Shown one piece after another: positions 2,331 to 21,572 of a stretch of 64,000 nt of DNA (position 1 is its first letter; each line of letters begins with the position of its first letter). The stretch spans positions 124,433-188,432 of the forward strand of contig NZ_ARQE01000007.1 of the NCBI RefSeq assembly GCF_000382705.1, written 5' to 3'. Source of the stretch: Aureimonas ureilytica DSM 18598 = NBRC 106430. Lineage in GTDB: Bacteria; Pseudomonadota; Alphaproteobacteria; Rhizobiales; Rhizobiaceae. The notes beneath the pieces are model-generated. The model was not told the origin of the DNA. It made no database searches and saw only the letters and a list, made by a program, of their open reading frames with translations. The position numbers were made by a program, and so were the translations under genes.

Positions 2331-2347
2331 GATCCCGCGCCGTCCGC

Positions 2348-3883
2348 TCAGGCCACGGAGACGAGCGTCGGCTGCAGCGCGCCGGACGTGTTCGGCACCA
2401 CCTTCAGCCCCTTCCGGAACACGACGGGCTGGACATACTGGAGGAGCGGAATGACGTAGCCTTCCTCGGCAATGTACTTGTCCACCGCCTTCCAGCCGGC
2501 GATGCGCTTCGCCTCGTCCTTCTCGCCCCAGAGCGGCGCGATCTTGGCGTCGAGGTCGTCGGTGTTCCAGACCGAATGCGGCGAGGGGCCGAACATGGCG
2601 AAGCCCGTCGAGGTCGTCGGATCGCCGATCGCGTTGCCCCAGTTGTAGAAGGCCGTTTCGGCGAGCTGGTCGGCGGCGCGCAGCTCGTAGTGCTTGGCGA
2701 TCTCGTAGACCTCGATCGTCGCCTCGATGCCGACCTTGCGCCACATGCCGACGATGGCCTGGACCATCTCGTAGTCCTTGGGCTTGAAGCCGCGCGTCGT
2801 CTGGATGGTGAACCTGGCCGGATTGCTCTTGGAATAGCCGCTGGCGGCGAGAAGCTCGACCGCCTTGGCCTCGTCGTAGCCGACCGTGATCGAGGGATCG
2901 TAGGCCTCGTATTCCGGCGCTTCCAGCGTGTCGATCGGCACGCCGTAGCCGCGCAGAAGCCGGTCCACGATCGCCTTCTTGTTGATCGCGTGATGGGCCG
3001 CGAGGCGCACGTTCTTGTCGAGCATGGCGCCGGTGTTGTTCACGAAGAGCATGCCGATGTCGGAGACCGGCGTCGCAACGCCCTCCAGCTTGCCGCCCTG
3101 GCGCAGGCGGTCGTATTCCTCGTAGGGGATTTCGAGCGTGATGTCGGCCGAGCCGCTCTCGACCTCCGCGACGCGGCTGACCGCGTCGGTCACGAACTTG
3201 AAGACCACCGTCTCGAAAGCCGGCTTGCCGCCCCAGTGGTTCGGGTTGGCCTTGAGGCGCAGATACGCGTTCCCCTCATAGGCGTCGACCATGTAGGGCC
3301 CGGTGCCCACGGGCTTGGCCTCGAAGCCCTGCGGGCCGACCTTCTCGTAATAGGCCTTGGGCAGCACGTAGCCGGTGAGGAAGGCCATCCACTTGAAGAG
3401 CGTCGGATCGAACTGCTTCACGTCGGCGGTGATGCGGTTGCCGTCCGCCTTCAGGTTGCCGATCGTGCTCCAGACGAACTGGATCGGGTTGCCGGTCGCC
3501 GGGTTCCCGGCGCGCTCCAGCGACCAGACGACGTCCTCGGCCGTGAAGGGCGAGCCGTCGTGCCAGGTGACGCCGTCGCGCACGGTCATGTGGACCTTGG
3601 TGCGGTCCTCGTTCCAGCCCCAGTCGGTGAGAAGACCCGGCTCGAAGGCGAGGTCGGGCTTCTGGCCGACGAACTGGTCGAAGACGGCGCGGTAGATCGC
3701 CTGGATCGTCGGGTTCACCGCGGAGGCGCCGACCGTCGGATCGAAGCTCGGCAGGTTGACATTGTAGGCGATGGTCAGCGTGCCGGGCGTCGCGGTCTGG
3801 GCGAGGGCCCGGCCCGACAGGACGGCGGACAGCAGCGCGCCCGCGCCGAGCGCGAGGGTCTGGCGGCGGTTGAGATCGAACAT
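2348..3883 (-). CDS. ABC transporter substrate-binding protein, family 5 (peptide/opine type)
   Basis: Periplasmic binding protein of 511 residues (SBP_bac_5, cluster C) that captures the ligand for the adjacent permeases. It starts with a signal peptide containing twin arginines (NRRQTLALGAGALL) and an ALA-Q cleavage site near residue 28, so Tat export is possible. The mature part has family motifs such as LLTDWGWNEDRTKVHMTVRD, VTWHDGSPFTAEDVVWS, PVGTGPYMVDAY and the late VRLAAHHAINKKAIVDRLL. It is the first gene of the ABC operon, 105 bp downstream of the oxidoreductase beta gene on the same strand. Family 5 proteins bind peptides, nickel, opines, sugars and other small molecules, so the ligand cannot be read from the sequence. 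Confidence 0.93.
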   Translation of the reverse strand: MFDLNRRQTLALGAGALLSAVLSGRALAQTATPGTLTIAYNVNLPSFDPTVGASAVNPTIQAIYRAVFDQFVGQKPDLAFEPGLLTDWGWNEDRTKVHMTVRDGVTWHDGSPFTAEDVVWSLERAGNPATGNPIQFVWSTIGNLKADGNRITADVKQFDPTLFKWMAFLTGYVLPKAYYEKVGPQGFEAKPVGTGPYMVDAYEGNAYLRLKANPNHWGGKPAFETVVFKFVTDAVSRVAEVESGSADITLEIPYEEYDRLRQGGKLEGVATPVSDIGMLFVNNTGAMLDKNVRLAAHHAINKKAIVDRLLRGYGVPIDTLEAPEYEAYDPSITVGYDEAKAVELLAASGYSKSNPARFTIQTTRGFKPKDYEMVQAIVGMWRKVGIEATIEVYEIAKHYELRAADQLAETAFYNWGNAIGDPTTSTGFAMFGPSPHSVWNTDDLDAKIAPLWGEKDEAKRIAGWKAVDKYIAEEGYVIPLLQYVQPVVFRKGLKVVPNTSGALQPTLVSVA

Positions 3884-3919
3884 GGCGGAGGGCCCCCTGA
3901 AGCCGAGATGACGACGGAA

Positions 3920-3985
3920 TGCGGCATGCGGATGCGAATGCGGATGGGCATGCGGGCTGGGGGCGCCCCCGTTCGGGGCGCCGCG
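3920..3985. repeat. ATGCGG-type short tandem repeats and G+C hairpin between iorB and the binding-protein gene
   Basis: The 105-bp spacer holds imperfect hexamer repeats of the form ATGCGG/ATGCGA at about 3920-3955. Next to them is a strong stem, GGCGCCCC at 3962-3969 pairing with GGGGCGCC at 3975-3982 around a CGTTC loop. Read on the minus strand (the direction of transcription) the hairpin lies just after the iorB stop and is not followed by a run of T. It could therefore be an mRNA stabilising or partial termination element that lowers or separates ABC transporter expression. Confidence 0.5.
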
Positions 3986-3988
3986 CCG

Positions 3989-5560
3989 TCAGATCGGCTC
4001 GTAGGCGGAGGCGACGGTGAGAAGCGCGCCGTCGAGCGCCTTGCCCTCCTCGTCGAGGAGCGCGGCCTTGATGAGCCGGTGCATCCAGGCGCCGCCATCG
4101 GCATGGGGCCGGAGCAGCGGCACGGCGGAAAGGACGCGGTCGAACTTGGAATGGCCGCGCGCGTGAGTGTCGGAATAGCCCTTCACGAGGCGGCGGGCGG
4201 CGAGGATCGCGACGGCGAGGTCGTAATTCGCGGGCAGCACCTCGCGCGCCGTCTCCAGCCAATGCGTCCAGTGCTCGACTTCGCGCTCGTGGCGCAGCGA
4301 GCCCCGGCGGAAGCGCTTGAGGCCGGCGACGAGGTAGAGCGCCAGGAACCAGTGGATGCGGTCGGTGCGCACGCGCCGTCCGCGATTGACGAGACGGTCG
4401 AGCGCGGCAAAGAGCTTCGGCCGGTTCTCGATGGCGTGGCCGATCCGGGCCGGCAGCGTGCCCGCCACCTCCTCCATGCGCGGATGCATGTATTCGGTGA
4501 GGCCGAGGATCTGGCCGTCCTTGGCGCCCACCTCGCGGCGGATGCGGGGCGTGCGGGCGGCGCGGGTCTTGAGGTCGGCAACGCGCACCACGTCGTCATA
4601 GGCCATGGCGACGGCGAGGTATTTCGCGGCGGCTTCGGTGAAGGCCCAAGCCTTGTCGGCACCGCCCTGCTTGCGATCCTCGGCGTGGAGCGCTTCGAGC
4701 ACCGTCAGATATTCGCCGGCATAGGCCGCGTCCTGATAGTCCGCGAGGCGCTTCACGCCCGCGAAGGCCATCGGGCGCACGCTTTCGGGCAGCGCGTGGA
4801 TGCGCGACAGAAGCGCGTCGAGTTCGGCCACGCCGACCGAGGCCGGGGGCTCCGGCAGGTCCTTGCCGGGCGCCTTCGGCACGATTTCCTTCTTGTCGCT
4901 GCCGACGCGGTCGAACCCGGCGGCAAAGGCTTTCAGGCTCGGCTCGACGCCCTTGCCGCCGGCGCGGATCGCCGCCTCGAAGGCCTCGCGCGCGAAGGGC
5001 AGGACGCCCGAGCCGGCGAGCGCGCCGAACATCGTCGCCGAGATCACGCTGCCGTTCTTTTCGGCCAGCGTCTGCATGTCGAAGGCCACGATGCGCTTGG
5101 CCGCGACGCCCGCCGCCGCGACGACGCTTTCCGGATCGCCCACACCGTCGCCCGGCACCTCCTTCTCGCCCACGGCATAGGAGCGGTGCGAGGAGGTGAT
5201 GAGCGTGGTGCGGTCGGGCGTCACGAGCCCGCGCAGCATGGAGCGCCCGGCTTCCATGAACTCGGCGGCGAGCACGACGTCGACATCGCCCGGCGTCGGC
5301 ATCAACGACAGGATCGGGTGATGGCCGCCCGAGGCCGGAAGCAGTTCGAGATAGTAGATCGTCGCGCCAGTGCGCTGGGCGACGCCGGGCACCGAAGTGG
5401 ACTGCGCCACCCAGCCCGCCCCTTCGGCGGTCGCCACGATCCAGTCGGCCAGCACCCCGCCGCCCTGCCCGCCCATGGCGAGGATGGCGAGCGAGACGGG
5501 CTTGTCGGTGGAAAGGCGCGCGGGGGCCGGGTCGCGCGGGAAACTCGGATGGATGGTCAT
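3989..5560 (-). CDS. iorB: Indolepyruvate-type 2-oxoacid:ferredoxin oxidoreductase, beta subunit (long form)
   Basis: Beta (gamma-domain) subunit of an indolepyruvate ferredoxin oxidoreductase-type enzyme, 523 residues. The family oxidatively decarboxylates aryl 2-oxo acids with coenzyme A and ferredoxin to aryl-CoA. The N-terminal ~200 residues contain the glycine-rich LAILAMGGQGGGVLADWI motif typical of the pyruvate ferredoxin oxidoreductase gamma domain. The remaining ~300 residues are an extra largely helical C-terminal region, so the protein is more than twice the classical IorB length of about 200. Such long forms are known in aerobic proteobacteria. It starts at the ATG at 5558-5560, 13 bp after the alpha-subunit stop, so the two subunits are co-expressed. 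The true substrate may be an aryl glyoxylate rather than indolepyruvate. Confidence 0.9.
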   Translation of the reverse strand: MTIHPSFPRDPAPARLSTDKPVSLAILAMGGQGGGVLADWIVATAEGAGWVAQSTSVPGVAQRTGATIYYLELLPASGGHHPILSLMPTPGDVDVVLAAEFMEAGRSMLRGLVTPDRTTLITSSHRSYAVGEKEVPGDGVGDPESVVAAAGVAAKRIVAFDMQTLAEKNGSVISATMFGALAGSGVLPFAREAFEAAIRAGGKGVEPSLKAFAAGFDRVGSDKKEIVPKAPGKDLPEPPASVGVAELDALLSRIHALPESVRPMAFAGVKRLADYQDAAYAGEYLTVLEALHAEDRKQGGADKAWAFTEAAAKYLAVAMAYDDVVRVADLKTRAARTPRIRREVGAKDGQILGLTEYMHPRMEEVAGTLPARIGHAIENRPKLFAALDRLVNRGRRVRTDRIHWFLALYLVAGLKRFRRGSLRHEREVEHWTHWLETAREVLPANYDLAVAILAARRLVKGYSDTHARGHSKFDRVLSAVPLLRPHADGGAWMHRLIKAALLDEEGKALDGALLTVASAYEPI

Positions 5561-5573
5561 GGGAACCGTCTCC

Positions 5574-7724
5574 TCAGGCGAAGGCGACGCGGCGCGTCTC
5601 GCGCCGGCGCTGGAGGAAGGTGATGACGCGCTCCCGAAGGCGGGCGAGGAAGCGGTCGGTCTTCGTCGGATTGAAGACGATGTCGGCCTTGTAGAAGGAG
5701 GGGCAGAGGATCGCCGCTTCCGACACCTCGCCGCAATTGCCGCAGCCGACGCACCCGTTGTCGATCGCGGCGACCGGATCGTCCTTCAAGGGGTCGGCCG
5801 TGTGCTTGACCGAGAGCGAGGGACAGCCCGAGAGGCGGATGCAGGCGTGGTCGCCGGTGCAGACGTCCTCGTCCACGCCGAAACGCTCCTTCACCACCCG
5901 CTCGCCGTTCTTCACGGCTTTGGCGAAGATCGGCTTTACCCGGCGCTGCTTGTTGAGCGAGCATTCCGAGGAGGCGACGATGACCTTCGGCCCCTTCTCA
6001 GGGCTCGTCAGCGCCTCCTTCAGTGTGTCGCGCATCTTGGCGACATCGTAGGTGCGATCGACATGGCGCACCCATTTGGCGCCGACGCCCTTCACCGCCG
6101 TCACGATGGAATTGTTGGTGGAGCGGTCGGGGTTCTCGGCGCGGGACGACAGGATGTCCTGACCGCCGGTGGCGGCGGCATAGTGGTTGTCCACTACCAT
6201 GATGACGCCGTCCTGTTTGTTGAAGACGGCGTTGCCGACGCTGGTGTTCAAGCCGTTATGCCAGAAGCCGCCGTCGCCCATGATCGAGATCGGGCGCTTC
6301 TTGGCATCGACGTTGAAGGCCGAGGCCGAGGCCGGCCCGAGCCCGTAGCCCATCGTCGTGCCGCCGATATTGAAGGGCGGCAGGATGGAGAAGAGGTGGC
6401 AGCCGATATCGGCCGAGACGTGGTGGGCTCCGAGTTCCTTCTCCACGAGCTTCATGGCCGCGAAGATCGGGCGCTCGGGGCAGCCGACGCAGAAGCCGGC
6501 AGGGCGCGCGGGAACGACCCCATTCAGCGCCTTCACCTTCGGATCGGCGAGCACGGCGTCGGCGCTCGGCACCGGCGGGCGGTTGCCGAGAAGCTCGGCC
6601 GCATGGGCGTCGAAGAAGGCGGTGAGGCCCTTGGCGAGAACCTGCGAGGTGTATTCGCCGCCGCGCGGCAGGAGGTCCTTGCCGGCAAGCTTGGTCTGGA
6701 GATCGTGACGGCGCAGGATAAGGCTCAGCGCCTGCTCGATATATTCCGGCTGGCCCTCCTCGATCATCAGGACGGCGTCCTTGCCGGCGCAGAAGGCGAC
6801 GAGTTCCTGATCGATCAGCGGATAGGAGACGTTGAGCACATAGAGCGGCACGGCGCTGGAGCCGTAGACATCGGCGAGGCCGAGATGCTGGAGCGCGCGC
6901 ATGACGCTGTTGTAGAGCCCGCCCTGGAGGACGAGGCCGACCCGGCCCGTTTCGGGGCCGAAATGTTCGTTGAGCTTTCGGCTCGCCACGAACTCGACGG
7001 CGGCGGGCCAGCGCTTCTCCAGCTTTTCCTTCTCGTGGACGTAAGCCGCTGGCGGCAGCACGATGCGGTTCAGGTCGCGCTTGGGGTTCTCGACGGCTTC
7101 CTTCAGCGTGAAGGCGGGACGCTTGTTGTCTTTCGCGACGAACTCGCCATGCACGTGGCAGGAGCGGATGCCGACCTGAAGCATGACCGGCGTGTTGGAG
7201 GCTTCCGACAGCTCGAACCCGGTCTCGACGGCCTCGACGATGGAGGTGAGGTTCGGGCGCGGGGTGAGGAGCCACATCTGCGACTTCATCGCAAACGCAT
7301 GTGTGCGCTCCTGCATGATGGAGGAGCCCTCGCCGTAATCCTCGCCGACGATGACGAGGGCGCCGCCCGTGACGCCGCCGGACGACAGGTTCGACAGCGC
7401 GTCGGAGGCGACGTTGGTGCCCGCCGTCGACTTCCAGGTCACGGCCCCGCGCACGGGATACATGACGGAGGCCGAGAGCATGGCGGCGGCGGCCGCTTCC
7501 GAGGCCGAGGATTCGAAATGGACGCCGAGTTCGTCCATGACGCCGCGCGCGTCGGCCAAGACGTCCATCAGATGCGAGATGGGCGAGCCCTGATAGCCGC
7601 CGACATAGGAGACGCCGGACTGCAGCAGCGCCTTGGTGATGGCGAGGATGCCCTCGCCGCGAAAGATGTCGCCCTCGCCGAGCTTCAGCTCTTCGACTTC
7701 GCGAACAAAAGACCGTTCCGCCAT
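5574..7724 (-). CDS. iorA: Indolepyruvate-type 2-oxoacid:ferredoxin oxidoreductase, alpha subunit
   Basis: Alpha subunit of 716 residues carrying the thiamine diphosphate chemistry and a C-terminal ferredoxin-like domain. The N-terminal half is the pyrimidine-binding domain (GGYQGSPISHLMDVL, AVTWKSTAGTNVASDALSNL). The C-terminal half has the TPP-binding segment ISIMGDGGFWHNG with VVDNHYAAATGGQ. The ferredoxin part has Cys622, Cys628 and Cys634 in an unusual wide spacing (CTGDHAC...CP), then a standard CxxCxxC at 658, 661 and 664 with Cys674-Pro. The ATG at 7722-7724 is the first gene of the iorAB-ABC transcription unit; a TTGACA box and an 18-bp palindrome lie upstream. Gene context suggests an aryl 2-oxo acid such as isatinate. 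Confidence 0.92.
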   Translation of the reverse strand: MAERSFVREVEELKLGEGDIFRGEGILAITKALLQSGVSYVGGYQGSPISHLMDVLADARGVMDELGVHFESSASEAAAAAMLSASVMYPVRGAVTWKSTAGTNVASDALSNLSSGGVTGGALVIVGEDYGEGSSIMQERTHAFAMKSQMWLLTPRPNLTSIVEAVETGFELSEASNTPVMLQVGIRSCHVHGEFVAKDNKRPAFTLKEAVENPKRDLNRIVLPPAAYVHEKEKLEKRWPAAVEFVASRKLNEHFGPETGRVGLVLQGGLYNSVMRALQHLGLADVYGSSAVPLYVLNVSYPLIDQELVAFCAGKDAVLMIEEGQPEYIEQALSLILRRHDLQTKLAGKDLLPRGGEYTSQVLAKGLTAFFDAHAAELLGNRPPVPSADAVLADPKVKALNGVVPARPAGFCVGCPERPIFAAMKLVEKELGAHHVSADIGCHLFSILPPFNIGGTTMGYGLGPASASAFNVDAKKRPISIMGDGGFWHNGLNTSVGNAVFNKQDGVIMVVDNHYAAATGGQDILSSRAENPDRSTNNSIVTAVKGVGAKWVRHVDRTYDVAKMRDTLKEALTSPEKGPKVIVASSECSLNKQRRVKPIFAKAVKNGERVVKERFGVDEDVCTGDHACIRLSGCPSLSVKHTADPLKDDPVAAIDNGCVGCGNCGEVSEAAILCPSFYKADIVFNPTKTDRFLARLRERVITFLQRRRETRRVAFA

Positions 7725-8039
7725 GGACCGCTCGTCAAGTTGTGGGAAGGGGATGCCGTCTCAGCGGCAGGGTATATCCATGCATACTCATGCTTTTTAG
7801 AACCGTGTCAAACATATTTCATGCTGCAACTGCTCAATCGGCGGGAGACCGGCGCTTAAGCTTTGGGCATTTGCATGAAAATGCAGGCATCGGACGAAGA
7901 TGCGCGTCCCGGCCCGGGCGGGCGAACCCGATGCGGAGCGGGCGTCGGCCGGGCGTGCGGCGGGGACGGAGGGAGACGGAACCGGGGCAGCCCTTCGGGG
8001 ATCTCGCCCGGAAGGGATCGGAGATCGATCGCCGAGCGA
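7725..8039. promoter_or_regulatory. 315-bp regulatory spacer upstream of iorA
   Basis: No gene is visible here. The spacer separates the marR stop from the iorA start, both on the minus strand. On that strand it holds a TTGACA box at 7806-7811. Seventeen bases further downstream is only a weak -10 candidate (AGTATG, 7783-7788). There is also an A+T-richer stretch with repeated GCATG/ATGCATG elements at about 7778-7795, and the palindrome annotated at 7867-7884. Together this looks like a regulated promoter for iorAB and the ABC transporter genes. Confidence 0.5.
7867..7884. promoter_or_regulatory. 18-bp near-perfect palindrome, candidate MarR operator upstream of iorA
   Basis: The sequence GCATTTGCATGAAAATGC matches its own reverse complement at 16 of 18 positions, with perfect GCATTT/AAATGC arms. 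It lies 143 bp upstream of the iorA start and about 155 bp after the end of a MarR gene on the same strand. The half site GCATTTGCA recurs at 11109-11117 in the divergent promoter region between the cyclase and monooxygenase operons. Size and symmetry fit a MarR dimer site. Assignment to this MarR protein is inferred. Confidence 0.5.
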
Positions 8040-8546
8040 TCAGAGATCGTTGCGGCGGATATTGCCGAGGATGCGGTGCAGGAGGGCGACGAGCGTCTGG
8101 TATTCCTCTTCCGAGACGCCCTCGAACATCTTCGAATAGCGTTCGTACATGGTCGGCCAGACGGCATTGAAGGCCGCGAGGCCCTTTTCCGTGATGGAGG
8201 TCTCGCGCACGCGCGCGTCGTCGGCGCGGGGCGTGCGGGTCACGAGGCCCTGCTCCTCCATCGCATCGAGCGTCCGGCTCATGGTGGACTGCTCGGTCAC
8301 GGCGTAGACGCTGAGCTCGTTGATCGCGAGGCCGTTGGAGACACTGAGGATGGCCAGAACGCGCATCTTGGCCGTCGTCATGTCGAAGGCCTTGAGCTCC
8401 TCCGACATGTCGGCGTTCCAGCGGGCGGCGACGCGGTTGAGGAGGTATGGGGCGAAATGGTTGAGCCCGAGTTCCCCCATCGAGGGGATCGCGCCCTTCC
8501 GCTCGTCCGCGCCGCCCAGAACACCGCGACGATACCTGCCGACCAT
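8040..8546 (-). CDS. MarR family transcriptional regulator
   Basis: Winged-helix regulator of up to 168 residues; MarR proteins are dimeric repressors released by aromatic ligands or CoA thioesters. The core from LNHFAPYLLNRVAARW through the recognition region (LAINELSVYAVTEQSTMSRTLDAMEEQGLVTR) and the wing (PRADDARVRETSITEKG) is clear. I list the ATG at 8544-8546, preceded by AGGTAGG and 3 bp after the flavoprotein stop. An internal ATG at 8478-8480 would give a 146-residue protein closer to the core family length. It is the third gene of the cyclase-flavoprotein-marR operon. It probably controls that operon, iorAB and the divergent monooxygenase operon. Confidence 0.9.
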   Translation of the reverse strand: MVGRYRRGVLGGADERKGAIPSMGELGLNHFAPYLLNRVAARWNADMSEELKAFDMTTAKMRVLAILSVSNGLAINELSVYAVTEQSTMSRTLDAMEEQGLVTRTPRADDARVRETSITEKGLAAFNAVWPTMYERYSKMFEGVSEEEYQTLVALLHRILGNIRRNDL

Positions 8547-8549
8547 GAC

Positions 8550-10133
8550 CTACCTGAGTGTCTGTGCGAGCGCGAAGCCCGATCCCGCGCCGAGCCCCGG
8601 CCCCGGATGGGTGGACGCGCCGATATGATAGAGCTTCGGGACGTGGGTCCGGTGATTAACCGAGCCCTTGAAAGGCCGCCAGAGGAAAAACTGGTCCACC
8701 CCACAGGCCCCGCCATACGGGTCGCCGCCGACGAGGTTGACGTTGAGGCGTTCGAGATCGGCGGGCGAATAGCTGACGCGCTTGAGGACGCTCTCGCGGA
8801 ACCCCTCGATATGGCCGGCCAGAATCGCCTCGATCCGGTCGGCATAGGCTTCCCGAAGCTCCGGCGTCCAGGCGCCGTCGGCCGGCGCCGGAATGATGCC
8901 CGCCGCATCGCCCTTGATGAAGCGGGGCGCCTCGGGAAGCTGGAGCCAGAGGATGGAGGCGCCGTCCGGCGCGCGCGAGGGATCGAGCATGGCGGGCTGG
9001 CCGACGCAGATCGTCGGCTCGGCGGGCAGCATGCCGCGCTCGGCTTCGTTCGCGGCGCGCGACACGCCGTCGAGACCGGGCGTCACGTGCAGGAGCGCGA
9101 CCTGGCCGAGCTCCGGCGAGGACCAGCGCGGCGGGCGCGACAGGGCGTAGTGGATCTGCATGTTGCCCTTGCCGTGGCGATAGCGCCGGGCGCTGTCCTT
9201 CATCTCGGGCGGCAGGCTCTCGCCCGGCAAGAGGCGGCCATAGAGCTGGCCGGGCGCGGCGGAGACGACGACGCCCGAGCCCGCGCGCAGCACCTCGCCG
9301 CCCGCCAGCCGCACGCCTTCGGCCTCGCCCCTGGCGTTGCGGACGATCTCCTCGACGTCGGCCCCGGTGCGGATGACGCCGCCATGGTCCTCGATCAGGC
9401 GGCGGAAGGCGGTGAGGATCGTCTCCGCCCCGCCCTTCACGACCGGCGCGCCTGCCGCCTCCAGCGCGAAGCCGATGACGCGGACCATCTCGCCCGAGAA
9501 GGTCGATTCCGGCCCGAGGCCGCAATGGAGCACCCAAGGGGCGAAGAGCGCGCGCGTCGTCTCGGAGTTGTAGGTCGTCTCCAGATGGGCGCGGGCATCC
9601 ACCATCGCCTCGCCGAAGAAGCGCGCAAGGCCGCGCGGCCCCCGGCGCAGCAGCTCGCGCCCCACGGTCTTCATCGTGGCGCGCGACCAGAGCGCGCTGC
9701 CGAGCAGCGAAAAGACGAAGCCGGCATTGCCCGCGAAGCGGTTCATGTCGGCGTCGAAAGCCGCGCCGTCGCCCGGCGACAGGGCGTCGAGCGCCCGGAC
9801 GTTGGCGGCGCGCTCGCGCGAGAGGGTCGCGTGCCGCCCGTCGGGCATGAGGACGCCCGTCGGATGGGCGGCGTCGCAGAATTCCAGCCCTCGCGCGGCG
9901 AGATCGTCCTTCAGCACGCCATAGGCCGGCGAGGTCGTGAAGAGGACAAAGGTCGTCGCCATCACGTCATGCACGAAGCCGGGTTCGGTGATCGCTTCCG
10001 TTCGGATGCAGCCGCCGATCCGATCGTTGCGCTCGAGAAGCACGACCTTTCGGCCGCGCTTGGCGAGGAGGCTGGCGGCCACCAGCCCGTTGATGCCGCT
10101 GCCCACGATGATGTAGTCCGCCTCGAGGGCCAT
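8550..10133 (-). CDS. FAD-dependent oxidoreductase, phytoene desaturase/PYROXD2-like
   Basis: Flavoprotein of 527 residues in the NAD(P)/FAD-dependent amine-oxidase/phytoene-desaturase superfamily. The N-terminal Rossmann motif reads IIVGSGINGLVAASLLAKRG with the second FAD element LERNDRIGG. The C-terminal FAD motif (YHIGASTHPGPGLGAGSG) is also typical. There is no signal peptide, so it is cytoplasmic or peripheral. It starts 16 bp after the cyclase gene and ends 3 bp before marR, so it belongs to the same operon. Relatives act on carotenoids, amines or alicyclic compounds. A dehydrogenation step in N-heterocycle breakdown is plausible here, but the reaction is not evident from sequence. Confidence 0.85.
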   Translation of the reverse strand: MALEADYIIVGSGINGLVAASLLAKRGRKVVLLERNDRIGGCIRTEAITEPGFVHDVMATTFVLFTTSPAYGVLKDDLAARGLEFCDAAHPTGVLMPDGRHATLSRERAANVRALDALSPGDGAAFDADMNRFAGNAGFVFSLLGSALWSRATMKTVGRELLRRGPRGLARFFGEAMVDARAHLETTYNSETTRALFAPWVLHCGLGPESTFSGEMVRVIGFALEAAGAPVVKGGAETILTAFRRLIEDHGGVIRTGADVEEIVRNARGEAEGVRLAGGEVLRAGSGVVVSAAPGQLYGRLLPGESLPPEMKDSARRYRHGKGNMQIHYALSRPPRWSSPELGQVALLHVTPGLDGVSRAANEAERGMLPAEPTICVGQPAMLDPSRAPDGASILWLQLPEAPRFIKGDAAGIIPAPADGAWTPELREAYADRIEAILAGHIEGFRESVLKRVSYSPADLERLNVNLVGGDPYGGACGVDQFFLWRPFKGSVNHRTHVPKLYHIGASTHPGPGLGAGSGFALAQTLR

Positions 10134-10149
10134 GACGCGCCGCCTGCCT

Positions 10150-10929
10150 TCAGTTCTTCGGCACGAGGGCGAGGACGCGCAAGGGGCTGCCCGTGCCGTT
10201 CACGATCTTCAGGGGCGCGGCGACGACGAGCGCGCCGGTCGGCGGCAGCTTGTCGAGATTGACGAGGCTGGCGAGCCCGTAGCGCCCCTCCTCCAGCATC
10301 AGGTGGTGAGCCGGGAACGGCGGATCGAAGCTGTGGGCCATGCCGGCGTCGGTGCCGACGCATTCGTTGCCCCAGCCGATGATCTTCTTCTCCACGAGAT
10401 AGCGGATGCAATCGACGGAGGGGCCGGGCGTGTGGCCGCCGTTGAGGAAGCTCTCGGCAGACTTGTTGCGCGGATACCAGTCCGAGCGCATGAAGACCCA
10501 GGCGCCTTCGGGAATCGCGCCATGCTCGGCCTCCCAGGCCTTCACGCCCTCGGCGGTCAGCACGAAGTCCGGGTCGGCGGCGACCTCATTCGTGCAGTCG
10601 ATCACGCAGACAGGCGCGACGAAATCCTTGGCGGGCAGCTTGTCGGTCGTGTTGTCGGGCCGGTCCTTGCCGGAGATCCAGTGCGCGGGCGCGTCGAAAT
10701 GGGTGCCCGTGTGCTCGCCAAGCTCCATCCAGCCCCAGGCCCACCAGGGACCGTTGGAATCATAGGCGGAGATCTCGTTCATCTTGAAGGCCGGCGTGTT
10801 CCGGCCGAACTCGGGCGGGAGGTAGAGGACCGGCGTCTCGGGCCCGAGCGGGGCGGTGAGATCGACCACCTCGATCGCGCCGGAGGCCAGAGCGGATGCG
10901 ACGGCGGACAGGCTTTCGGCAGCGGACAT
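10150..10929 (-). CDS. Cyclase-family metal hydrolase, isatin hydrolase/kynurenine formamidase-like
   Basis: A 259-residue member of the cyclase superfamily, which hydrolyses cyclic or formyl amides using a bound divalent metal. The signature HTGTHFDAPAHW places His73, His77, Asp79 and His83 as metal and catalytic residues. Later motifs are FMRSDWYPRNK, GHTPGPS, VGTDAGMAHSFDP and an ending with AAPLKIVNGTGSPLRVLALV. From memory these resemble isatin hydrolase (isatin to isatinate) more closely than bacterial kynurenine formamidase, but I could not align them. The ATG at 10927-10929 has GAGG 8 bp upstream; a TTG two codons earlier is less likely. It is the first gene of the operon with the flavoprotein and marR. 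No kynureninase gene is nearby, which weighs against a kynurenine role. Confidence 0.82.
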   Translation of the reverse strand: MSAAESLSAVASALASGAIEVVDLTAPLGPETPVLYLPPEFGRNTPAFKMNEISAYDSNGPWWAWGWMELGEHTGTHFDAPAHWISGKDRPDNTTDKLPAKDFVAPVCVIDCTNEVAADPDFVLTAEGVKAWEAEHGAIPEGAWVFMRSDWYPRNKSAESFLNGGHTPGPSVDCIRYLVEKKIIGWGNECVGTDAGMAHSFDPPFPAHHLMLEEGRYGLASLVNLDKLPPTGALVVAAPLKIVNGTGSPLRVLALVPKN

Positions 10930-11240
10930 CGGCAACCTCGATAGAAAGGAAAGGGGATCGCGGCGCCATCCCTGCGCGTCGCATGACGGGAGGATGACGA
11001 GCGATCAATGAAATTGCAAGCATCTCCCGACGCGAAATCTTGGAGCGATGTCGCCGGGTGTACGGGTTTCAAGCGTTTTGCAGCGCAATACATGGACGAG
11101 GCTGCTTCGCATTTGCACAAACCTGCTCAATCTGAATGCAGATGCAGATAATTTCCGAACACGCTTGACGGCGGCCCCGCGCCGAAATATTTTAGGTCTA
11201 AATCATTTCCCGAACCGACGCCCCTCCAAGGAGGCCATCC
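10930..11240. promoter_or_regulatory. 311-bp divergent promoter region between cyclase and monooxygenase operons
   Basis: No gene fits here. For the plus strand there is a good promoter candidate, TTGACG at 11165-11170, a 17-bp spacer, and TATTTT at 11188-11193. It overlaps the small palindrome TTTAGGTCTAAA at 11191-11202 (5-bp perfect arms). A GCATTTGCA half site at 11109-11117 matches one arm of the palindrome upstream of iorA. This layout suggests that one MarR protein coordinates both divergent operons and iorAB. Confidence 0.5.
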
Positions 11241-13550
11241 ATGCGTATCGTCTGTATCGGCGGCGGCCCTGCCGGCCTGTATTTCGCGCTTCTGATGAAG
11301 AAGAATCACCCCGAGCACTCGATCACCGTGGTCGAGCGCAACCGGCCCTACGACACGTTCGGCTGGGGCGTCGTCTTCTCCGACGCGACCATGGTCGCGA
11401 TGCGCCAGTGGGACCCCGAAAGCGCGGCCGAGATCGAGGACGCCTTCAACCACTGGGACGATATCGAGCTCATCTTCAAGGGCGAGACGCTGCGCACCAC
11501 CGGCCACGGTTTCGTCGGCATCGGGCGCAAGAAGCTTCTCAACATCCTCCAGAGCCGCTGCGAGGCGCTCGGCGTCGAGCTCCGCTTCGAGACGGAGGTG
11601 AACGGCGACGAGGACTTCCCCGACGCCGACCTCGTGATCGCCTCCGACGGCTTCAACTCGAAGGTGCGCAACAAATACGCCGATATCTTCGAGCCCGACC
11701 TCGTCAAGCGGCCGAACCGCTTCGTCTGGCTCGGCACCAACAAGCTCTTCGACGCCTTCACCTTCGACTTCAAGAAGACCGAGCACGGCTGGTTCCAGGC
11801 CCATATCTACAAGTTCGACGACAAGACCTCGACCTTCATCGTCGAGACGACCGAAGAGGCTTTCGCCGCCCACGGGCTGGAGGCGATGAGCCAGGACGTG
11901 TCGATCGCCTTCTGCGAAAACCTCTTCGCCGACACGCTGGACGGCGCGCCCTTGATGACCAACGCGCGGCACATGCGCGGCTCGGCCTGGCTCAACTTCT
12001 CGCGCCTCATCTGCGGCAAGTGGAGCCATTTCAACGGCAACAGCCATGTCGTCCTGATGGGCGACGCCGCCCACACCGCCCATTTCGCCATCGGCTCGGG
12101 CACCAAGCTCGCGCTGGAAGACGCGATCGAACTGACGCGCCAGTTCAACGCGCACGGCCATGGCCGCGACGCCATCCCTGCGGTCCTCGACGATTACGAG
12201 GCGATCCGCCGCGTCGATGTCGCCCGCATCCAGAACGCCGCGCGCAACGCGATGGAATGGTTCGAGGTCGTGGGCGAGCGCTATGCCGACCAGCTCCCGC
12301 CCCAGCAGTTCATGTATTCCATGCTGACGCGCTCGCAGCGCATCAGCCACGAGAACCTGCGCCTGCGCGATCCCGTCTGGCTGGAAGGCTACGAGCGCTG
12401 GTTCGCGGAACAGTCAGGCGTGCCGGCCAAGAATGGCGAGCGCCCGCTGCCGCCGATGCTGACGCCCTATCGCTTGCGCGGCGTCACGCTCAAGAACCGC
12501 ATCGTCATGTCGCCGATGGCGATGTACTCCGCCACGGACGGCGAGATCGGCGATTTCCACCTCGTCCATATCGGCAGCCGAGCCATGGGCGGCGCGGCGC
12601 TCGTCTTCCCCGAGATGACCTGCGTCTCGGCGGATGCGCGCATCACGCCCGGCTGCCTCGGCCTCTGGAACGACACCCAGGCTCAAGGCTGGAAGCGCCT
12701 TGCCGACTTCGTCCACGCCAACAGCGACGCCAAGCTCGGCATCCAGATCGGCCATGCCGGCCGCAAGGGCGCGACCAAGCTCGCCTGGGACGGGATCGAC
12801 GAGCCTTTGACCGAAGGCGCATGGCCGCTCCTGTCGGCCTCGGCCCTCCCCTATCTCCAGCATTCCGCCGTGCCGAAGGCGATGGACCGGGCCGACATGG
12901 ATCGGGTGCTCGCCGACTTCGTCGCGGCCACGCGCCGCGCGGCGGAAGCCGGCGTCGACTGGCTGGAGCTGCACTGCGCACACGGCTATCTCCTCTCCTC
13001 CTTCCTCTCGCCGCTGACGAACAGGCGCGAGGACGAATACGGCGGCTCCCACGAGAACCGCGCGCGCTTCCCCCTGGAGGTCTTCCGCGCCGTGCGCGCG
13101 GCCTGGCCGGAGGATCGTCCGATCTCGGTGCGCCTCTCCGCGCATGACTGGTTCGAGGGCGGCAACACGCCCGACGACGCCGCGATCTTCGCGAGGCTCT
13201 TCAAGGAAGCGGGCGCCGACATGATCGACTGCTCGTCCGGTCAGGTCTGGAAGGAGGAGAAGCCGGTCTATGGCCGCCTGTTCCAGACGCCCTTCTCCGA
13301 CAAGATCCGCAACGAGGTGGGCATTCCCACCATCGCCGTCGGCGCGATCTCGGAAGCCGACCACGCCAACTCCGTGATCTCGGCGGGCCGGGCCGACCTC
13401 TGCGCCATCGCGCGGCCGCATCTCGCCGACCCCGCCTGGACGCTGCACGAGGCCGCCAAGATCGGCATCCGCTCCGTGCCGTGGCCCAAGCAGTACTACT
13501 CCGCCAAGCGGCAGTTCGAGACCAATCTCGAACGGGCGGCCGCGCAGTGA
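11241..13550 (+). CDS. Fused 2-aminobenzoyl-CoA/salicylyl-CoA monooxygenase-reductase
   Basis: A 769-residue two-domain flavoprotein. Residues 1 to about 390 form a class A FAD monooxygenase ([41 protein letters not shown]). Residues ~413-769 form an Old Yellow Enzyme-type FMN reductase ([36 protein letters not shown]). This fusion is characteristic of 2-aminobenzoyl-CoA monooxygenase/reductase of Azoarcus evansii. That enzyme hydroxylates anthraniloyl-CoA and reduces the ring to 2-amino-5-oxocyclohex-1-ene-carbonyl-CoA; databases often name the family bifunctional salicylyl-CoA 5-hydroxylase/oxidoreductase. The ATG at 11241 has AAGGAGG about 9 bp upstream. It is the first gene of an operon with SDR, thioesterase and RidA. 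Which acyl-CoA is the substrate cannot be told from sequence, but the nitrogen-handling neighbours favour anthraniloyl-CoA. Confidence 0.9.
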
Positions 13551-14335
13551 GCGCGGATCGCTCCCTCCTCGGCCGCCACGCGCTCGTCACGGGCGCGGGG
13601 TCCGGCATCGGCGCGGCGATCGCCGAGCGCCTCGCGGCGGCCGGCGCGCGCGTCACCCTCGCCGGGCGACGCGAGGAACCGCTCAAGGCGGTGGCCGAGC
13701 GGCTGGGGGGCGAGACGCTCATTGCCGCCGGCTTCGACGTCACGGACGCAGCCGCCATCGCCAGCGGCCTCGATAAGGCGCGGGAGGCTTTCGGGCCCGT
13801 CTCGATCCTCGTCAACAATGCCGGCGAGGCGCCGAGCGCGCCCTTCGAGAAGACGAGCGCGGAGATGTGGGCGAAGGTCCTGTCGGTGGACCTGACCGGC
13901 GTCTTCAACGTGACGCAAGGAGCCCTCCCCGACCTGCGCGCGGGCGGCCCCGGCGGGCGCATCGTCAACGTCGCCTCGACGGCGGGCCTGACGGGCTACG
14001 CCTATGTCACCGCCTATTGCGCCGCCAAGCATGGCGTCGTCGGCCTGACGCGGGCGCTGGCGATCGAACTCGCCAAGACCGGCATCACCGTCAACGCCGT
14101 CTGCCCCGGCTTCACCGACACGCCGATCATCGCGGAGTCCATCGAGCGCATCGTCGCCAAGACCGGGCGCAGCCATGTGGAGGCGTTGAAGGAGTTCACC
14201 AAGAGCAACCCGCAGGGACGGCTCGTCTCGCCCGCCGAGGTGGCCGACGCGGTCCTCTGGCTCGCCCTCCCCTCCGCCTCCGCCATCACGGGCCAGGCCG
14301 TCGCCGTCGCGGGCGGCGAGGTCATGGCCGGATAA
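13547..14335 (+). CDS. SDR family oxidoreductase in the aminobenzoyl-CoA operon
   Basis: Short-chain dehydrogenase of 262 residues, NAD(P)-dependent. The cofactor motif TGAGSGIG lies near residue 18, NNAG near residue 92, and the catalytic YCAAK at about residues 161-165. The start is a GTG at 13547-13549 that overlaps the monooxygenase stop (GTGA), so it is translationally coupled. In this context it is a candidate for reducing or oxidising the oxo/hydroxy group of the alicyclic CoA ester made by the upstream enzyme; that role is inferred. Confidence 0.9.
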
Positions 14336-14351
14336 CAGGGATACGACACCC

Positions 14352-14765
14352 ATGCCCTTCACCCAGTCCAAGCCGCTCCGCTTCGGCGACTGCGACCTCA
14401 CCGGCATCGCCTACCACCCCGCCTATTTCGGGATGCTGGTGGACGTGAACGAGGCGATGTTCGCCTCCTTCGGCGTCACCTGGAAGGAGCTGATGTTCGA
14501 GCGCCGCATCGGCCTGCCGACGGTGACGCTGAACGTCACCTTCGTCGCGCCCTCCACCTATGGCGACGTGCTCGACTTCGCCGTCCATGTGCGCGCGGTC
14601 GGCCGCGCCTCGCTCGACCTGGAGACCGTGGTGAGCGTGCGCGGCCAGACGATCTGGACCGTCAAGCAGCGCATCGTCGCGACCTCGCTCGAGAACCACA
14701 AGTCCCACCCCTGGCCGGACGATGTCCGCGCCGGCCTCACCCGCTATCTGGAGCCCGCAGAATGA
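14352..14765 (+). CDS. Hotdog-fold acyl-CoA thioesterase (4-hydroxybenzoyl-CoA thioesterase-like)
   Basis: A 137-residue single hotdog domain. The 4HBT-type active-site segment RFGDCDLTGIAYHPAYFGM at residues ~11-29 carries the aspartate (Asp16) equivalent to the catalytic residue. It probably hydrolyses aryl- or alicyclic-CoA thioesters, either for pathway flux or to rescue CoA from dead-end intermediates. The ATG at 14352 is 16 bp after the SDR stop, and the gene's own stop overlaps the ridA start (ATGA), so it sits firmly in the operon. Confidence 0.88.
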   Translation: MPFTQSKPLRFGDCDLTGIAYHPAYFGMLVDVNEAMFASFGVTWKELMFERRIGLPTVTLNVTFVAPSTYGDVLDFAVHVRAVGRASLDLETVVSVRGQTIWTVKQRIVATSLENHKSHPWPDDVRAGLTRYLEPAE

Positions 14766-15166
14766 GCCACGAGATCCTCCAGCCCGAAGGCTGGGCCAAG
14801 CCCATCGGATACGCCAACGGCATCAAGGCCAAGGGCACGTTCCTGCAGGTCGGCGGCCAGATCGGCTGGGACGAGAACTGCGAATTCCACTCCGACGATT
14901 TCGTCGATCAGGTGGAACTGGCGCTGAAGAACATCGTGCGGGTTCTGGAAACGGGCGGCGCCAAACCCGAGCACATCGTCCAGATGACCTGGTACTTCAC
15001 CGACCGCGAGGCCTACAAATCCGGCATGAAGCGGATCGGGGCGGCATACCGCGCGGTCATCGGCCGTCACTTCCCGCCGATGGCGGCGGTGCAGGTCGTG
15101 GCCCTCATGGAGGACCGCGCCAAGATCGAGATCGTGGCGAGCGCCGTCATTCCCGATCCGAGCTGA
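14762..15166 (+). CDS. RidA family enamine/imine deaminase
   Basis: A 134-residue RidA/YjgF/UK114 protein. RidA enzymes hydrolyse reactive enamines and imines to ketones and ammonia. The family core (QVGGQIGWDENCEF, VLETGGAKPEHIVQMTWY, RHFPPMAAVQVVALMEDRAKIEIVASAV) is complete, but the canonical catalytic arginine segment is replaced here by FPPMAAVQV, so it is a divergent subfamily. The monooxygenase product of the 2-aminobenzoyl-CoA route is a ring enamine. A dedicated RidA as last gene of this operon therefore makes chemical sense as the ammonia-releasing step. Its 3' end overlaps the convergent marR gene by 20 bp. Confidence 0.88.
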   Translation: MSHEILQPEGWAKPIGYANGIKAKGTFLQVGGQIGWDENCEFHSDDFVDQVELALKNIVRVLETGGAKPEHIVQMTWYFTDREAYKSGMKRIGAAYRAVIGRHFPPMAAVQVVALMEDRAKIEIVASAVIPDPS

Positions 15167-15674
15167 CCCGCTCCTCGGTCAGCGCCCGCCGGGCCCTGCC
15201 CTTCATCTTGCGCAGGAGCCCGAGCATCTGGCGCGTCTCGGCGGGGTCGAGCCCCGCCGTCAGCGAGCGGATCCAACCCTCGTGCGACCGCGCCATCTCG
15301 GCGAACGTGGCGCGGCCGAGCGGGGTCATGTGGATGAAGCTCTCGCGCCGGTCGTCCGGGTTCTGCTCGCGCCGGATCAGCCCGTCCTCCACCAGCCTCT
15401 TGATGACGGCGGTGATGTTGCCGGGCGAGACCATCAAGCGCTGGGAAAGCTCGCCGAGGTTCAACCCGTCCGGCGCGCGCTCGATCTGGGAAAGGATGTC
15501 GAAGCGGGGAAAGGTCGTGTCGAACTCCGACAGGAGCCGGCGACGCACCTCGTTCTCGATGAGGCGCGAGACGCTGTAGAGGCGCAGCCAGAGGCGAAGC
15601 TGGTCGTGCTCGTCGCCGACCGCGTCAGCGATCTTGGTCTCCGCGTCGATCCAAACCTTTGATGTCTCGCTCAT
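15147..15674 (-). CDS. MarR family transcriptional regulator (second in catabolic island)
   Basis: Winged-helix MarR protein of 175 residues. The dimerisation and HTH region (LNLGELSQRLMVSPGNITAVIKRLVEDGLIRREQNPDDRRESFIHMTPLG) is clear. I chose the ATG at 15672-15674 (MSETSK) with GAGG about 10 bp upstream; longer in-frame starts add a poor N-terminus. It is convergent with the RidA operon (20-bp 3' overlap) and divergent from the cupin/FAH/SDR operon across a 152-bp spacer. It is the likely regulator of that operon and perhaps of the monooxygenase operon. Confidence 0.9.
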   Translation of the reverse strand: MSETSKVWIDAETKIADAVGDEHDQLRLWLRLYSVSRLIENEVRRRLLSEFDTTFPRFDILSQIERAPDGLNLGELSQRLMVSPGNITAVIKRLVEDGLIRREQNPDDRRESFIHMTPLGRATFAEMARSHEGWIRSLTAGLDPAETRQMLGLLRKMKGRARRALTEERVSSDRE

Positions 15675-15826
15675 TTTTCTGACGCCTCGCCTGCCCTCGC
15701 CCATCGCTATGCCAGCCGGCACGGCCCCTGCCAAGCCGGCTCACGCCATAATACTTGACATCTAAACTAATACCGGAAACCTTTCCATCCCAACGGCGCC
15801 CGGACGCCGAACTCTCGGAGGACCCC
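15675..15826. promoter_or_regulatory. Divergent marR/cupin promoter region
   Basis: This 152-bp spacer contains TTGACA at 15755-15760 followed directly by TCTAAACTAATAC. The TCTAAA element (15761-15766) matches one half of the TTTAGGTCTAAA palindrome in front of the monooxygenase gene. It may be a shared operator element for a MarR protein. A convincing -10 box at 17 bp is not visible on the plus strand. Confidence 0.4.
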
Positions 15827-16258
15827 ATGACGGCATCGGTCAAGCCCATCGTCACCCGCAAGGACCAGGAGCACACGGGCACCGGCCAGTCCGGCGGCGC
15901 CAAGCGCATCTCGGGCGTCAGCCCGCAGCACACGCCCGCCACCAAGATCTGGTTCGGCAAGGTCTCCAACGAGCCGGGCTACCGCTCCCTGCCGCACCAC
16001 CACGGCGAGGCCGAGACGGGCGGCTACGTGCTGAAGGGCAAGGGCCGCATCTACTGGGGCGAGAACTACGAGGAGTTCATCGACATGGCCGAGGGCGACT
16101 TCGTGTTCGTGCCGCCGATGATGCCCCATGTCGAGGTCAACATGTCGACGACCGAAGAGCTGGTCTGGATGACCTGCCGCACCCCCGACAACATCGTCGT
16201 CAACCTCGAGGACGTGCCGGACGAGATCCTCGTCGGCTACGTCGCGCCGGCTCGCTGA
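15827..16258 (+). CDS. Small cupin-domain protein
   Basis: A 143-residue single cupin barrel. Motif 1 (HHHGEAETGGYVLKGKG, around residues 59-75) supplies His, His and Glu metal ligands. Motif 2 (GDFVFVPPMMPHVEVN) supplies a further His. Such small cupins act as metal-dependent dioxygenases, isomerases or hydrolases; full-length gentisate dioxygenases are bicupins more than twice as long, so this is not one. The ATG at 15827 has GGAGG 5 bp upstream and replaces a longer start that would run into the promoter. It is the first gene of an operon with an FAH-family hydrolase and an SDR. Confidence 0.85.
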   Translation: MTASVKPIVTRKDQEHTGTGQSGGAKRISGVSPQHTPATKIWFGKVSNEPGYRSLPHHHGEAETGGYVLKGKGRIYWGENYEEFIDMAEGDFVFVPPMMPHVEVNMSTTEELVWMTCRTPDNIVVNLEDVPDEILVGYVAPAR

Positions 16259-16268
16259 GGGCCGCGCG

Positions 16269-17905: not shown

Positions 17906-17908
17906 CAG

Positions 17909-17948
17909 GAACCCCGGCGCACCGAAAGGTCCGCCGGGGTTCTGCTTT
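17909..17948 (+). terminator. Rho-independent terminator after the cupin/FAH/SDR operon
   Basis: GAACCCCGGCG at 17909-17919 pairs perfectly with CGCCGGGGTTC at 17932-17942 around a 12-nt loop, followed by TGCTTTT. It begins just after the SDR stop and separates this operon from the MFS transporter gene. Confidence 0.88.
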
Positions 17949-18092
17949 TGCGAGCGAGGGAGCCACCGTGGGTAGAGCGCGCGACGCGCCTCCCGCTCCC
18001 GAGCGACGCCCGCGGACCGCCGTGGCCCCTCGGCCGACCCGCGCAGACCCCGCGCATCCCCGACCGATCCCCCATTCAAAGGAGAAACGTGC

Positions 18093-21554: not shown

Positions 21555-21572
21555 GGCGGTCTCCATCTGTTG

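Follow-up and report, generated by a model that had tools for sequence, protein, structure and literature searches.

A probable ligase-free route from isatin to anthraniloyl-CoA through an IorAB-type oxidoreductase in Aureimonas ureilytica

A stretch of 64,000 nucleotides from the alphaproteobacterium Aureimonas ureilytica DSM 18598 = NBRC 106430, positions 124433-188432 of contig NZ_ARQE01000007.1 (C7, where C stands for a contig of this genome of 5.09 Mb and 44 contigs), is the window of this work and carries a compact set of catabolic genes. An isatin hydrolase (IH), an oxidoreductase with IorA- and IorB-type subunits (IorAB) and a fused 2-aminobenzoyl-CoA monooxygenase/reductase (ACMSR) are encoded there together, a gene content that an earlier note on this DNA had read from the letters alone and that is now borne out by Pfam, NCBIfam and PDB matches; the span it gave, 3989-15166, runs correctly from the stop of IorB to the stop of a RidA gene. 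Judging from genome comparisons, IorAB is probably an isatinate:ferredoxin oxidoreductase, which would form anthraniloyl-CoA in a pathway of isatin degradation, a branch on which no CoA ligase would be needed.

In the proposed route, IH would open isatin to isatinate, that is 2-aminophenylglyoxylate, and IorAB would turn isatinate, CoA and ferredoxin into anthraniloyl-CoA, CO2 and reduced ferredoxin by oxidative decarboxylation. ACMSR would then hydroxylate and reduce the ring of anthraniloyl-CoA to yield 2-amino-5-oxocyclohex-1-ene-carboxyl-CoA, the product named, as a cited result, in PMC3534580, and a short-chain dehydrogenase/reductase (SDR), a RidA-type deaminase, a thioesterase, a small cupin and a fumarylacetoacetate-hydrolase (FAH) family protein would complete the degradation, presumably in this order. 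Isatin itself would probably derive from indole or a close relative by means of a monooxygenase, a flavin reductase and an SDR encoded upstream, plus a CrtI-like oxidase, and free anthranilate from tryptophan would reach the same ACMSR separately, via a CoA ligase linked to tryptophan 2,3-dioxygenase (TDO) on contig C12.

The distribution of these genes was followed in two partly overlapping sets of sampled genomes (G numbers), one of the family (n=151) and one of the phylum (n=398), as well as in plasmid records. An IorB orthologue was counted in the family set at E <= 1e-70. Of 87 genomes with a listed match at E <= 0.001, this retains 50, and nearly all the others show long frames of about 1140-1320 aa and 23-38% identity; a ligase was counted at E <= 1e-100, and the StyA/IndA-type monooxygenase (SMO) at 59% identity or more, which excludes the weak matches of G007 and G112 (34-36% identical). 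Under these definitions, the family set holds IorB in 50 genomes, IH in 46, ACMSR in 89, ligase in 80, TDO in 73 and SMO in 13. All 46 genomes with IH also have IorB, and none of the 101 genomes without IorB has IH (Fisher p 1.6e-34). The association survives a paired test on the ACMSR tree (63 rows), where about 10.4 of 11 independent pairs are concordant and none is opposite (p about 0.001), and it extends to the phylum set, with 29 genomes carrying IorB, 25 carrying IH and 23 both (Fisher 1e-29). Moreover, IH accompanies IorB in 40 of 43 plasmid records, the other three holding proteins only 37-43% identical to the IorB of the window, and the 13 SMO-positive family genomes all carry IH and IorB.

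A second regularity links IorB to the lower pathway. ACMSR is present in all 50 IorB genomes and all 80 ligase genomes of the family; conversely, each of the 89 ACMSR genomes has either IorB or a ligase homologue, the 62 genomes without ACMSR have neither, and the 39 ACMSR genomes devoid of IorB all keep a ligase. The earlier note had asked for a search of genomes where IH, IorAB and ACMSR co-occur without a ligase, and that search found nine in the family, from six genera, with no ligase of the type encoded on C12 (G002, G009, G014, G023, G031, G084, G113, G117 and G130). IorB and IH occur in nine of these nine and TDO in none (for ACMSR genomes, Fisher 0.004). G130, with a completeness of 89% and about 310 contigs, may lack the ligase because of a gap in its assembly.

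The absence of a ligase near ACMSR was also considered as the main argument and set aside as too weak, in favour of genome-wide absence. A local ligase (within about 10 kb) is likewise missing in 10 of 13 IorB-less genomes with the ACMSR type of the window, every one of which has a ligase elsewhere, in five cases just 11-14 kb away; a further genome, G086, is scored likewise solely because a contig end interrupts its ligase.

Gene neighbourhoods were labelled by BLAST against our own reference set, genes outside that set staying unlabelled, and they comprise 49 IorB neighbourhoods from 47 of the 50 family genomes (excluding the window itself, G077 and G086), ACMSR neighbourhoods for 60 of 92 places in the family set, and 80 named IorB loci (L numbers), the best of at least 404 relatives, some of them also in the family set and 15 of them shorter than 19 kb. 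IH is in view in 34 of the 49 family IorB neighbourhoods, a CrtI-like gene in 27, a MarR regulator in 46 and ACMSR in 8; the 80 named loci show IH in 46, an IadD-like Rieske gene in 20 and ACMSR in 10. Around ACMSR, a local ligase was found in 34 of the 60 places and a local IorB in six, and none of those six has a local ligase. In G130, IH-CrtI-MarR-IorA-IorB-thioesterase faces RidA-ACAD-ECH-MarR-SDR-ACMSR, with G031 in agreement wherever its sequence was read. Relatives are arranged as ACMSR-SDR-MarR-ECH-ACAD-ligase, and it is IorAB that occupies the position of the ligase in G031 and G130, neither of which has a ligase genome-wide at the threshold given.

Plasmids offer what we read as another solution for the same substrate. 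Three IorB-less IH plasmids carry a separate thiamine diphosphate (TPP) enzyme beside or near IH: that of Deinococcus psychrotolerans (NZ_CP034186; L291 6956-9369), in the order ACMSR-SDR-MarR-ECH-ACAD-ligase-IH-TPP enzyme-RidA; that of Rhodococcus erythropolis R138 (L287 5315-7773), with IH-TPP enzyme; and that of Agrobacterium pusense (L292 1017-7732), where some 4 kb separate IH and the TPP enzyme. The three proteins, of about 547 aa and 55-57% mutual identity, match the acetolactate-synthase/benzoylformate-decarboxylase superfamily without passing a cut-off shown, and none of their kind appeared in 140 IorB neighbourhoods scanned (a few being one place fetched twice). They are candidate isatinate decarboxylases yielding 2-aminobenzaldehyde; isatinate might thus be handled either by IorAB without a ligase or by a TPP decarboxylase plus a ligase.

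The modules found upstream of IorAB bear on its substrate. Achromobacter loci begin with IorA-IorB and continue with IadC-D-E-F-G-H-IH-SDR, and the Zoogloeaceae locus L253 reads SDR, monooxygenase, CrtI, IH, IorA, IorB, IadC-D-E-F-G-H, IH, SDR, placing IorAB between an indole module and an iad (auxin) module, each with its own IH. Azospirillum thermophilum keeps a block of SDR-indole monooxygenase-flavin reductase-transporter-CrtI-IH on one plasmid and IorAB, iad-type genes and ACMSR on another. Since the indole and iad modules converge on isatin and have IorAB in common, we infer that its substrate is isatinate and not an earlier intermediate. On balance, and more guardedly, we also lean towards a general reading, in which PRK08312-type IorB with IorA would be a dedicated isatinate:ferredoxin oxidoreductase, in charge of the step that consumes isatinate when bacteria degrade auxin or indole, and the node where upstream modules meet: iad for indole-3-acetate, monooxygenase-SDR-CrtI for indole, and an Opp-transporter/two-CrtI module for another indole compound.

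Within the window, the cluster spans 437-19415. The genes from the Opp-type ABC importer to IH lie on the minus strand. Those from ACMSR, which is divergent from IH, to the MFS transporter lie on the plus strand, save for a second MarR-like gene that separates RidA from the cupin:

437-3883, minus strand: oligopeptide/nickel-type ABC importer (Pfam BPD_transp_1, SBP_bac_5), with permeases at 437-1360 and about 1323-2744 and a substrate-binding protein at 2348-3883; the start of its ATPase lies before the window
3989-5560, minus strand: IorB-type subunit, POR domain plus DUF6537 (Pfam); PRK08312
5574-7724, minus strand: IorA-type TPP subunit with a ferredoxin-like C-terminus (TIGR03336 match, Pfam TPP_enzyme_C)
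7725-8039: intergenic region upstream of iorA, with the imperfect inverted repeat GCATTTGCA/TGAAAATGC at 7867-7884
8040-8546, minus strand: MarR-family regulator (Pfam MarR; PDB 3cjn E 2e-37, 7kym E 2e-27)
8550-10133, minus strand: CrtI/CrtO-like FAD oxidoreductase, CrtI1 (Pfam Amino_oxidase; crtI_fam below cut-off)
10150-10935, minus strand: IH, its ATG start probably at 10929 (PDB 4j0n match; metal motif)
10936-11240: divergent promoter region of IH and ACMSR, with GCATTTGCA at 11109-11117
11241-13550, plus strand: ACMSR (PRK08255; FAD_binding_3 plus Oxidored_FMN)
13481-14335, plus strand: SDR dehydrogenase (Pfam adh_short), the true start probably later
14352-14765, plus strand: 4HBT-type thioesterase (Pfam 4HBT_2)
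14762-15166, plus strand: RidA-type enamine/imine deaminase (Pfam Ribonuc_L-PSP)
15147-15734 (match 15177-15620), minus strand: second MarR-like regulator, 34% to a MarR of the Shinella cluster
15755-16258, plus strand: small cupin protein (Pfam Cupin_2), 74% to the cupin of the pAL1 anthranilate operon
16269-17129, plus strand: FAH-family protein (Pfam FAA_hydrolase), 41% to the pAL1 homologue
17312-17851 (matched stretch), plus strand: SDR, 40% to an ACMSR-linked SDR
18093-19415, plus strand: MFS transporter (Pfam MFS_1), 52% to a transporter beside ACMSR in Tsukamurella

The subunits of IorAB show the TPP-binding subunit, the gamma-type POR domain and the iron-sulfur cysteines of the 2-oxoacid:ferredoxin oxidoreductase superfamily. 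IorB belongs to NCBIfam PRK08312 (707.1 bits vs a cut-off of 348); IorA matches TIGR03336 (IOR_alpha) with E 4e-82, yet with 276.4 bits vs a cut-off of 650.9, and it is therefore a homologue of the indolepyruvate ferredoxin oxidoreductase alpha subunit rather than a canonical equivalog. Its motifs GDGGFWHNG and CxxDHxCxxxxxCP / CxxCxxC...CP are invariant across 20 homologues. At residues 622-635, the first ferredoxin-like motif, CxxDHxCxxxxxCP, has an invariant Asp at the usual position of the second Cys, and Asp in place of Cys is known from some Asp-ligated clusters. A PDB profile search with IorA gave no match, and its AlphaFold2 model is weak, with a mean pLDDT of 59.9. A thioesterase gene lies immediately 3' of IorB in several clusters.

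In the wider family, described by an IorB tree of 166 rows (duplicates L177, L181 and L193 and partial IorB matches excluded, 35 rows without an assigned IH status, and low support near the root), some contexts differ. A distant IorAB pair of Variovorax boronicumulans (NZ_CP138497; L043 12866-23442) has ABC transporters, a mandelate-racemase-like enolase and an alpha-hydroxy acid oxidase around it, a context hinting at mandelate-type substrates and benzoyl-CoA formation. Ten open reading frames around the IH-less IorAB loci L060 and L246 yielded only cobalamin-synthesis and TRAP-transporter genes, several of the frames being probably wrong. In five loci (L040 13702-17578, L044 19541-23508, L039, L095 and L097), IorAB adjoins a gentisate-dioxygenase-like cupin, an FAH hydrolase and a carbon-nitrogen hydrolase, together with an Asp/Glu racemase in most annotations, which suggests a route via 5-hydroxyanthranilate, maleamate and then maleate that would end in fumarate; for its part, the Shinella cupin scores below the gentisate and 5-aminosalicylate dioxygenase cut-offs.

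The cyclase of the earlier note is, by its sequence, an isatin hydrolase: phmmer aligns it with PDB 4j0n, 'Isatin hydrolase B' (E 2e-104), and with 5nna, 'isatin hydrolase A' (E 9e-93), and the Mn-binding motif of these solved enzymes, HxGTHxDxPxHW, is found from residue 75 as HTGTHFDAPAHW. Hydrolysis of isatin to isatinate (2-aminophenylglyoxylate) is the known reaction of this family. ACMSR has 1365 bits against PRK08255 (cut-off 1078), FAD-monooxygenase and OYE domains, and 52% identity to the enzyme of pAL1 from Arthrobacter sp. Rue61a.

The IH, CrtI and MarR genes, separated by 16 and 3 bases, look like a single operon given this tight packing; IorA and IorB are 13 bases apart, and 315 bases lie between MarR and IorA. 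The inverted repeat upstream of iorA is a weak candidate for an operator. Its arm GCATTTGCA occurs twice in the 64 kb, in the iorA promoter and at 11109 (chance mean 0.20), and the two nearest relatives do not retain it at both of these promoters; an operator common to the iorA and IH/ACMSR promoters is likewise a weak proposal. A TTTAG..CTAAA palindrome close to the ACMSR start is conserved in three genomes. The oligopeptide/nickel-type importer adjoins IorAB, CrtI or IH in many relatives, and beyond the cluster, at 19582-22364, a FecCD permease, a periplasmic binding protein and an ATPase make up an iron/siderophore-type ABC importer. The whole gene set looks accessory, since G079, the sole other genome of the same genus sampled, has no above-threshold match for IorB, IH, ACMSR, ligase, TDO or SMO.

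The earlier note saw no isatin-forming oxygenase in the window, which holds for the window itself, but an indole-monooxygenase-like gene lies 4.8 kb upstream on the same contig, and the isatin-forming oxygenase is thus probably encoded just outside. This StyA/IndA-type (indole/styrene-type) monooxygenase (C7:118372-119598) is grouped with an SDR and a flavin-reductase-like gene, and a second CrtI-like gene comes next. Its closest solved relatives, 7z4x (E 2e-160; which we take to be VpIndA1) and 9j0h (E 6e-63), place it in the StyA/IndA group, and with a score of 242 it falls short of the 550 set for the StyA equivalog. CrtI1 is 69% identical to the Azospirillum thermophilum gene located between the indole monooxygenase and IH, and we propose it as a putative dioxindole-to-isatin enzyme. 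The two CrtI-like genes, at 8550-10133 and, outside the window, at C7:119774-121372, are 39% identical and accompany the Opp-type importer in many relatives.

A number of observations weigh against the proposed role of IorAB, and they start with the ligases. The earlier note was right that no aryl-CoA ligase is present in the window, nor is there one on C7, which holds none of the eight AMP-binding genes of the genome, but contig C12 encodes a ligase homologue (95394-97124), and anthranilate could be re-activated by it. This protein is 53% identical to the pAL1 ligase, its closest solved relative is an anthranilate-CoA ligase, and it falls narrowly below the benzoate-CoA-ligase cut-off (364.5 vs 375.25 bits). 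Because its gene adjoins that of TDO, close to an FAH gene and to a cupin that shares 77% identity with the gentisate-dioxygenase-like cupin of Shinella, it plausibly serves free anthranilate derived from tryptophan. A ligase of another type, PRK06155, is encoded on C3 (L164 8908-10626) beside an IadG-like thiolase (67%), and about 12 IorB loci show such a ligase, either adjoining IH, IorA or ACMSR or at some other place in the region viewed (for example L037 2498-4075, L041 11243-12844, L219 and L284 about 5580). The extent to which these clusters are ligase-free depends on whether the acid activated is an aryl acid or one of the side chain. In one of the nine genomes mentioned above, G002, ACMSR adjoins a ligase of the PRK06155 type, and none was found in the neighbourhoods read of the other eight, where no genome-wide survey of this type was made. 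Ligase homologues are, moreover, visible in 5 of the 49 family and 11 of the 80 named IorB loci, including 3 of the 10 named loci with ACMSR and IorB (L212, L214, L227); Tsukamurella has IorAB, IH, ACMSR and a ligase 62% identical to that of pAL1 in one cluster; G016, one of the six genomes with a local IorB, has a 53% ligase homologue some 22 kb from ACMSR; and in L047 (the same place as L201) a ligase and TDO adjoin IorAB. IorAB and ligase are therefore not mutually exclusive, and the role of the ligase may be to activate anthranilate that arises from a second source.

The co-occurrence has its exceptions as well. IorB is found without IH in four family genomes (G032, G049, G066, G068) and in six of the phylum set: G169, G285, G337, G351 and G377, whose IorB is 36-42% identical (G169 shows, in addition, a partial match of 55% that contains a stop), and G408, where it is 57%. 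The reverse, IH without IorB, is seen in G383 and G471 and in 20 of 60 IH plasmid records, for which the plasmid records alone were examined; among them is an iad-type locus of Roseibium, and IorAB is absent from the 9 kb about it. At the IH locus of G471 (L290 6457-18340), IH adjoins ACMSR and a ligase homologue (66%), and neither IorAB nor a TPP enzyme was recognised nearby, which would make it a third arrangement, without a known isatinate-consuming enzyme. On the ACMSR tree, the paired test of ligase loss against IorB was not significant, with just four pairs, nor was that of ligase against TDO, despite a strong raw association. Finally, according to PMC12633357, a nine-gene iadC-K2 segment restored anthranilate in a Variovorax mutant deleted for the locus; therefore, the iadA and iadB (iorAB) genes of the locus are not needed for anthranilate in Variovorax. 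In our own reading, the formulas given in the literature on the iad loci fit isatinate and 2-aminobenzaldehyde. Of the published findings, the restoration of anthranilate weighs most against a need for IorAB, and it can be reconciled with the proposal if isatinate decarboxylates otherwise, without IorAB.

Alternatively, IorAB could be a true indolepyruvate or phenylpyruvate oxidoreductase that travels with indole and auxin genes, isatinate being converted to anthranilate otherwise or spontaneously and then activated by the C12 or a PRK06155-type ligase. The family names of IorA and IorB suggest as much, as do the resemblance of the C12 ligase to the assayed pAL1 enzyme, the published reports of anthranilate as iad end product and of its appearance from a segment without iorAB, and the ligase homologues beside IorAB in some relatives. 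However, IorA lies far under the IOR_alpha cut-off, nine genomes with IH, IorB and ACMSR lack a C12-type ligase (G002 having another type), IorAB takes the place of the ligase in G031 and G130, and a TPP enzyme stands in the stead of IorAB beside IH on some plasmids, all of which leads us to regard this explanation as unlikely, albeit one to be taken seriously. We hold it improbable that IorAB acts on some other 2-oxo acid of the pathway, either a ring-substituted aryl glyoxylate or an earlier side-chain intermediate, to give the matching acyl-CoA, a route that would still be ligase-free: the Variovorax boronicumulans pair with its oxidase and enolase, and an alpha-hydroxy-acid-oxidase-like gene in the main-clade locus L246, indicate that the family may accept several aryl glyoxylates, whereas isatinate is the direct product of the gene nearly always accompanying IorB, and the indole-type and auxin-type modules that have IorAB in common meet at isatin on present knowledge, as in L253.

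That the association merely reflects horizontal co-transfer of unrelated catabolic genes, with no common pathway, is very improbable; the cluster is patchy, as its absence from G079 illustrates, but about 11 independent pairs show IorB and IH varying together, no pair being opposite, and the two also do so phylum-wide in several gene orders. The isatinate-to-anthraniloyl-CoA link drawn by the earlier note thus gains from the co-occurrence, the nine genomes, the replacement in G031 and G130 and the TPP enzymes beside IH, although it stops short of proof and has to accommodate the C12 ligase homologue.

If IorAB is indeed an isatinate oxidoreductase, the cellular product would be a CoA ester and not anthranilate, activation would proceed at no cost of ATP and with a gain of reduced ferredoxin, and a function could be given to iorAB in the iad loci. 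The complex would be an aerobic aryl-glyoxylate oxidoreductase able to replace a CoA ligase, and it would supply the isatinate step, for which we found no enzyme assignment in print.

The iad loci are among the known systems closest to the window. Those of Variovorax, Achromobacter and Bradyrhizobium have iorA and iorB homologues, as a legend in PMC9613470 also states, MarR control and an IH-family gene, which holds the IadI position in Achromobacter (L269/L271). The presence of IorAB in auxin loci was therefore known already; new here is the step proposed for it. The window has the IorAB, IH and MarR regulator of such a locus and lacks the IadDE Rieske, IadF ligase and IadG thiolase; no IadC-IadH homologue was found in it, and elsewhere in the genome the best Rieske match to IadD is about 31% identical, vs 65-82% in the iad loci examined, and the best AMP-binding match to IadF is 34%, in a gene that best matches another ligase family. 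The published end point of iad loci is anthranilate, and we found no step assigned to IorAB. PMC8383072 cites a 1995 description of auxin degradation through isatin in Bradyrhizobium; this route leads by way of isatinate to anthranilate, with no gene given for that step in the text seen; in the open-access literature, no paper was found joining isatinate with anthraniloyl-CoA or with IorAB. The indole (iif/ind) clusters resemble instead what lies just upstream of the window, their StyA-like indole monooxygenase, flavin reductase and SDR being matched there. They use IifA to reach anthranilate (PMC6221969), at a point where the window cluster shows CrtI, IH and IorAB.

With respect to single enzymes, the IH of the window aligns with the solved Labrenzia and Ralstonia isatin hydrolases at E 1e-79 to 2e-104, with an identical metal motif and no difference seen. 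The phenylglyoxylate:acceptor oxidoreductase of anaerobic bacteria oxidatively decarboxylates an aryl 2-oxo acid to an aryl-CoA; this anaerobic, multi-subunit enzyme is likened to the proposed IorAB by its reaction, not by its sequence. The lower part of the cluster, in turn, is like the aerobic 2-aminobenzoyl-CoA pathway of pAL1, which has homologues of ACMSR, RidA, the cupin and the FAH protein and a thioesterase gene, in the order RidA-FAH-cupin-thioesterase-ligase-ACMSR, and shows no IorA, IorB or IH in its first 50 kb. An anthranilate-CoA ligase adjoining ACMSR, whose activity was assayed in extracts, is described for pAL1 in PMC3534580 (matched to the record by position). No such ligase is found within the operon of the window: where pAL1 has a ligase next to ACMSR, the window has IorAB and IH instead.

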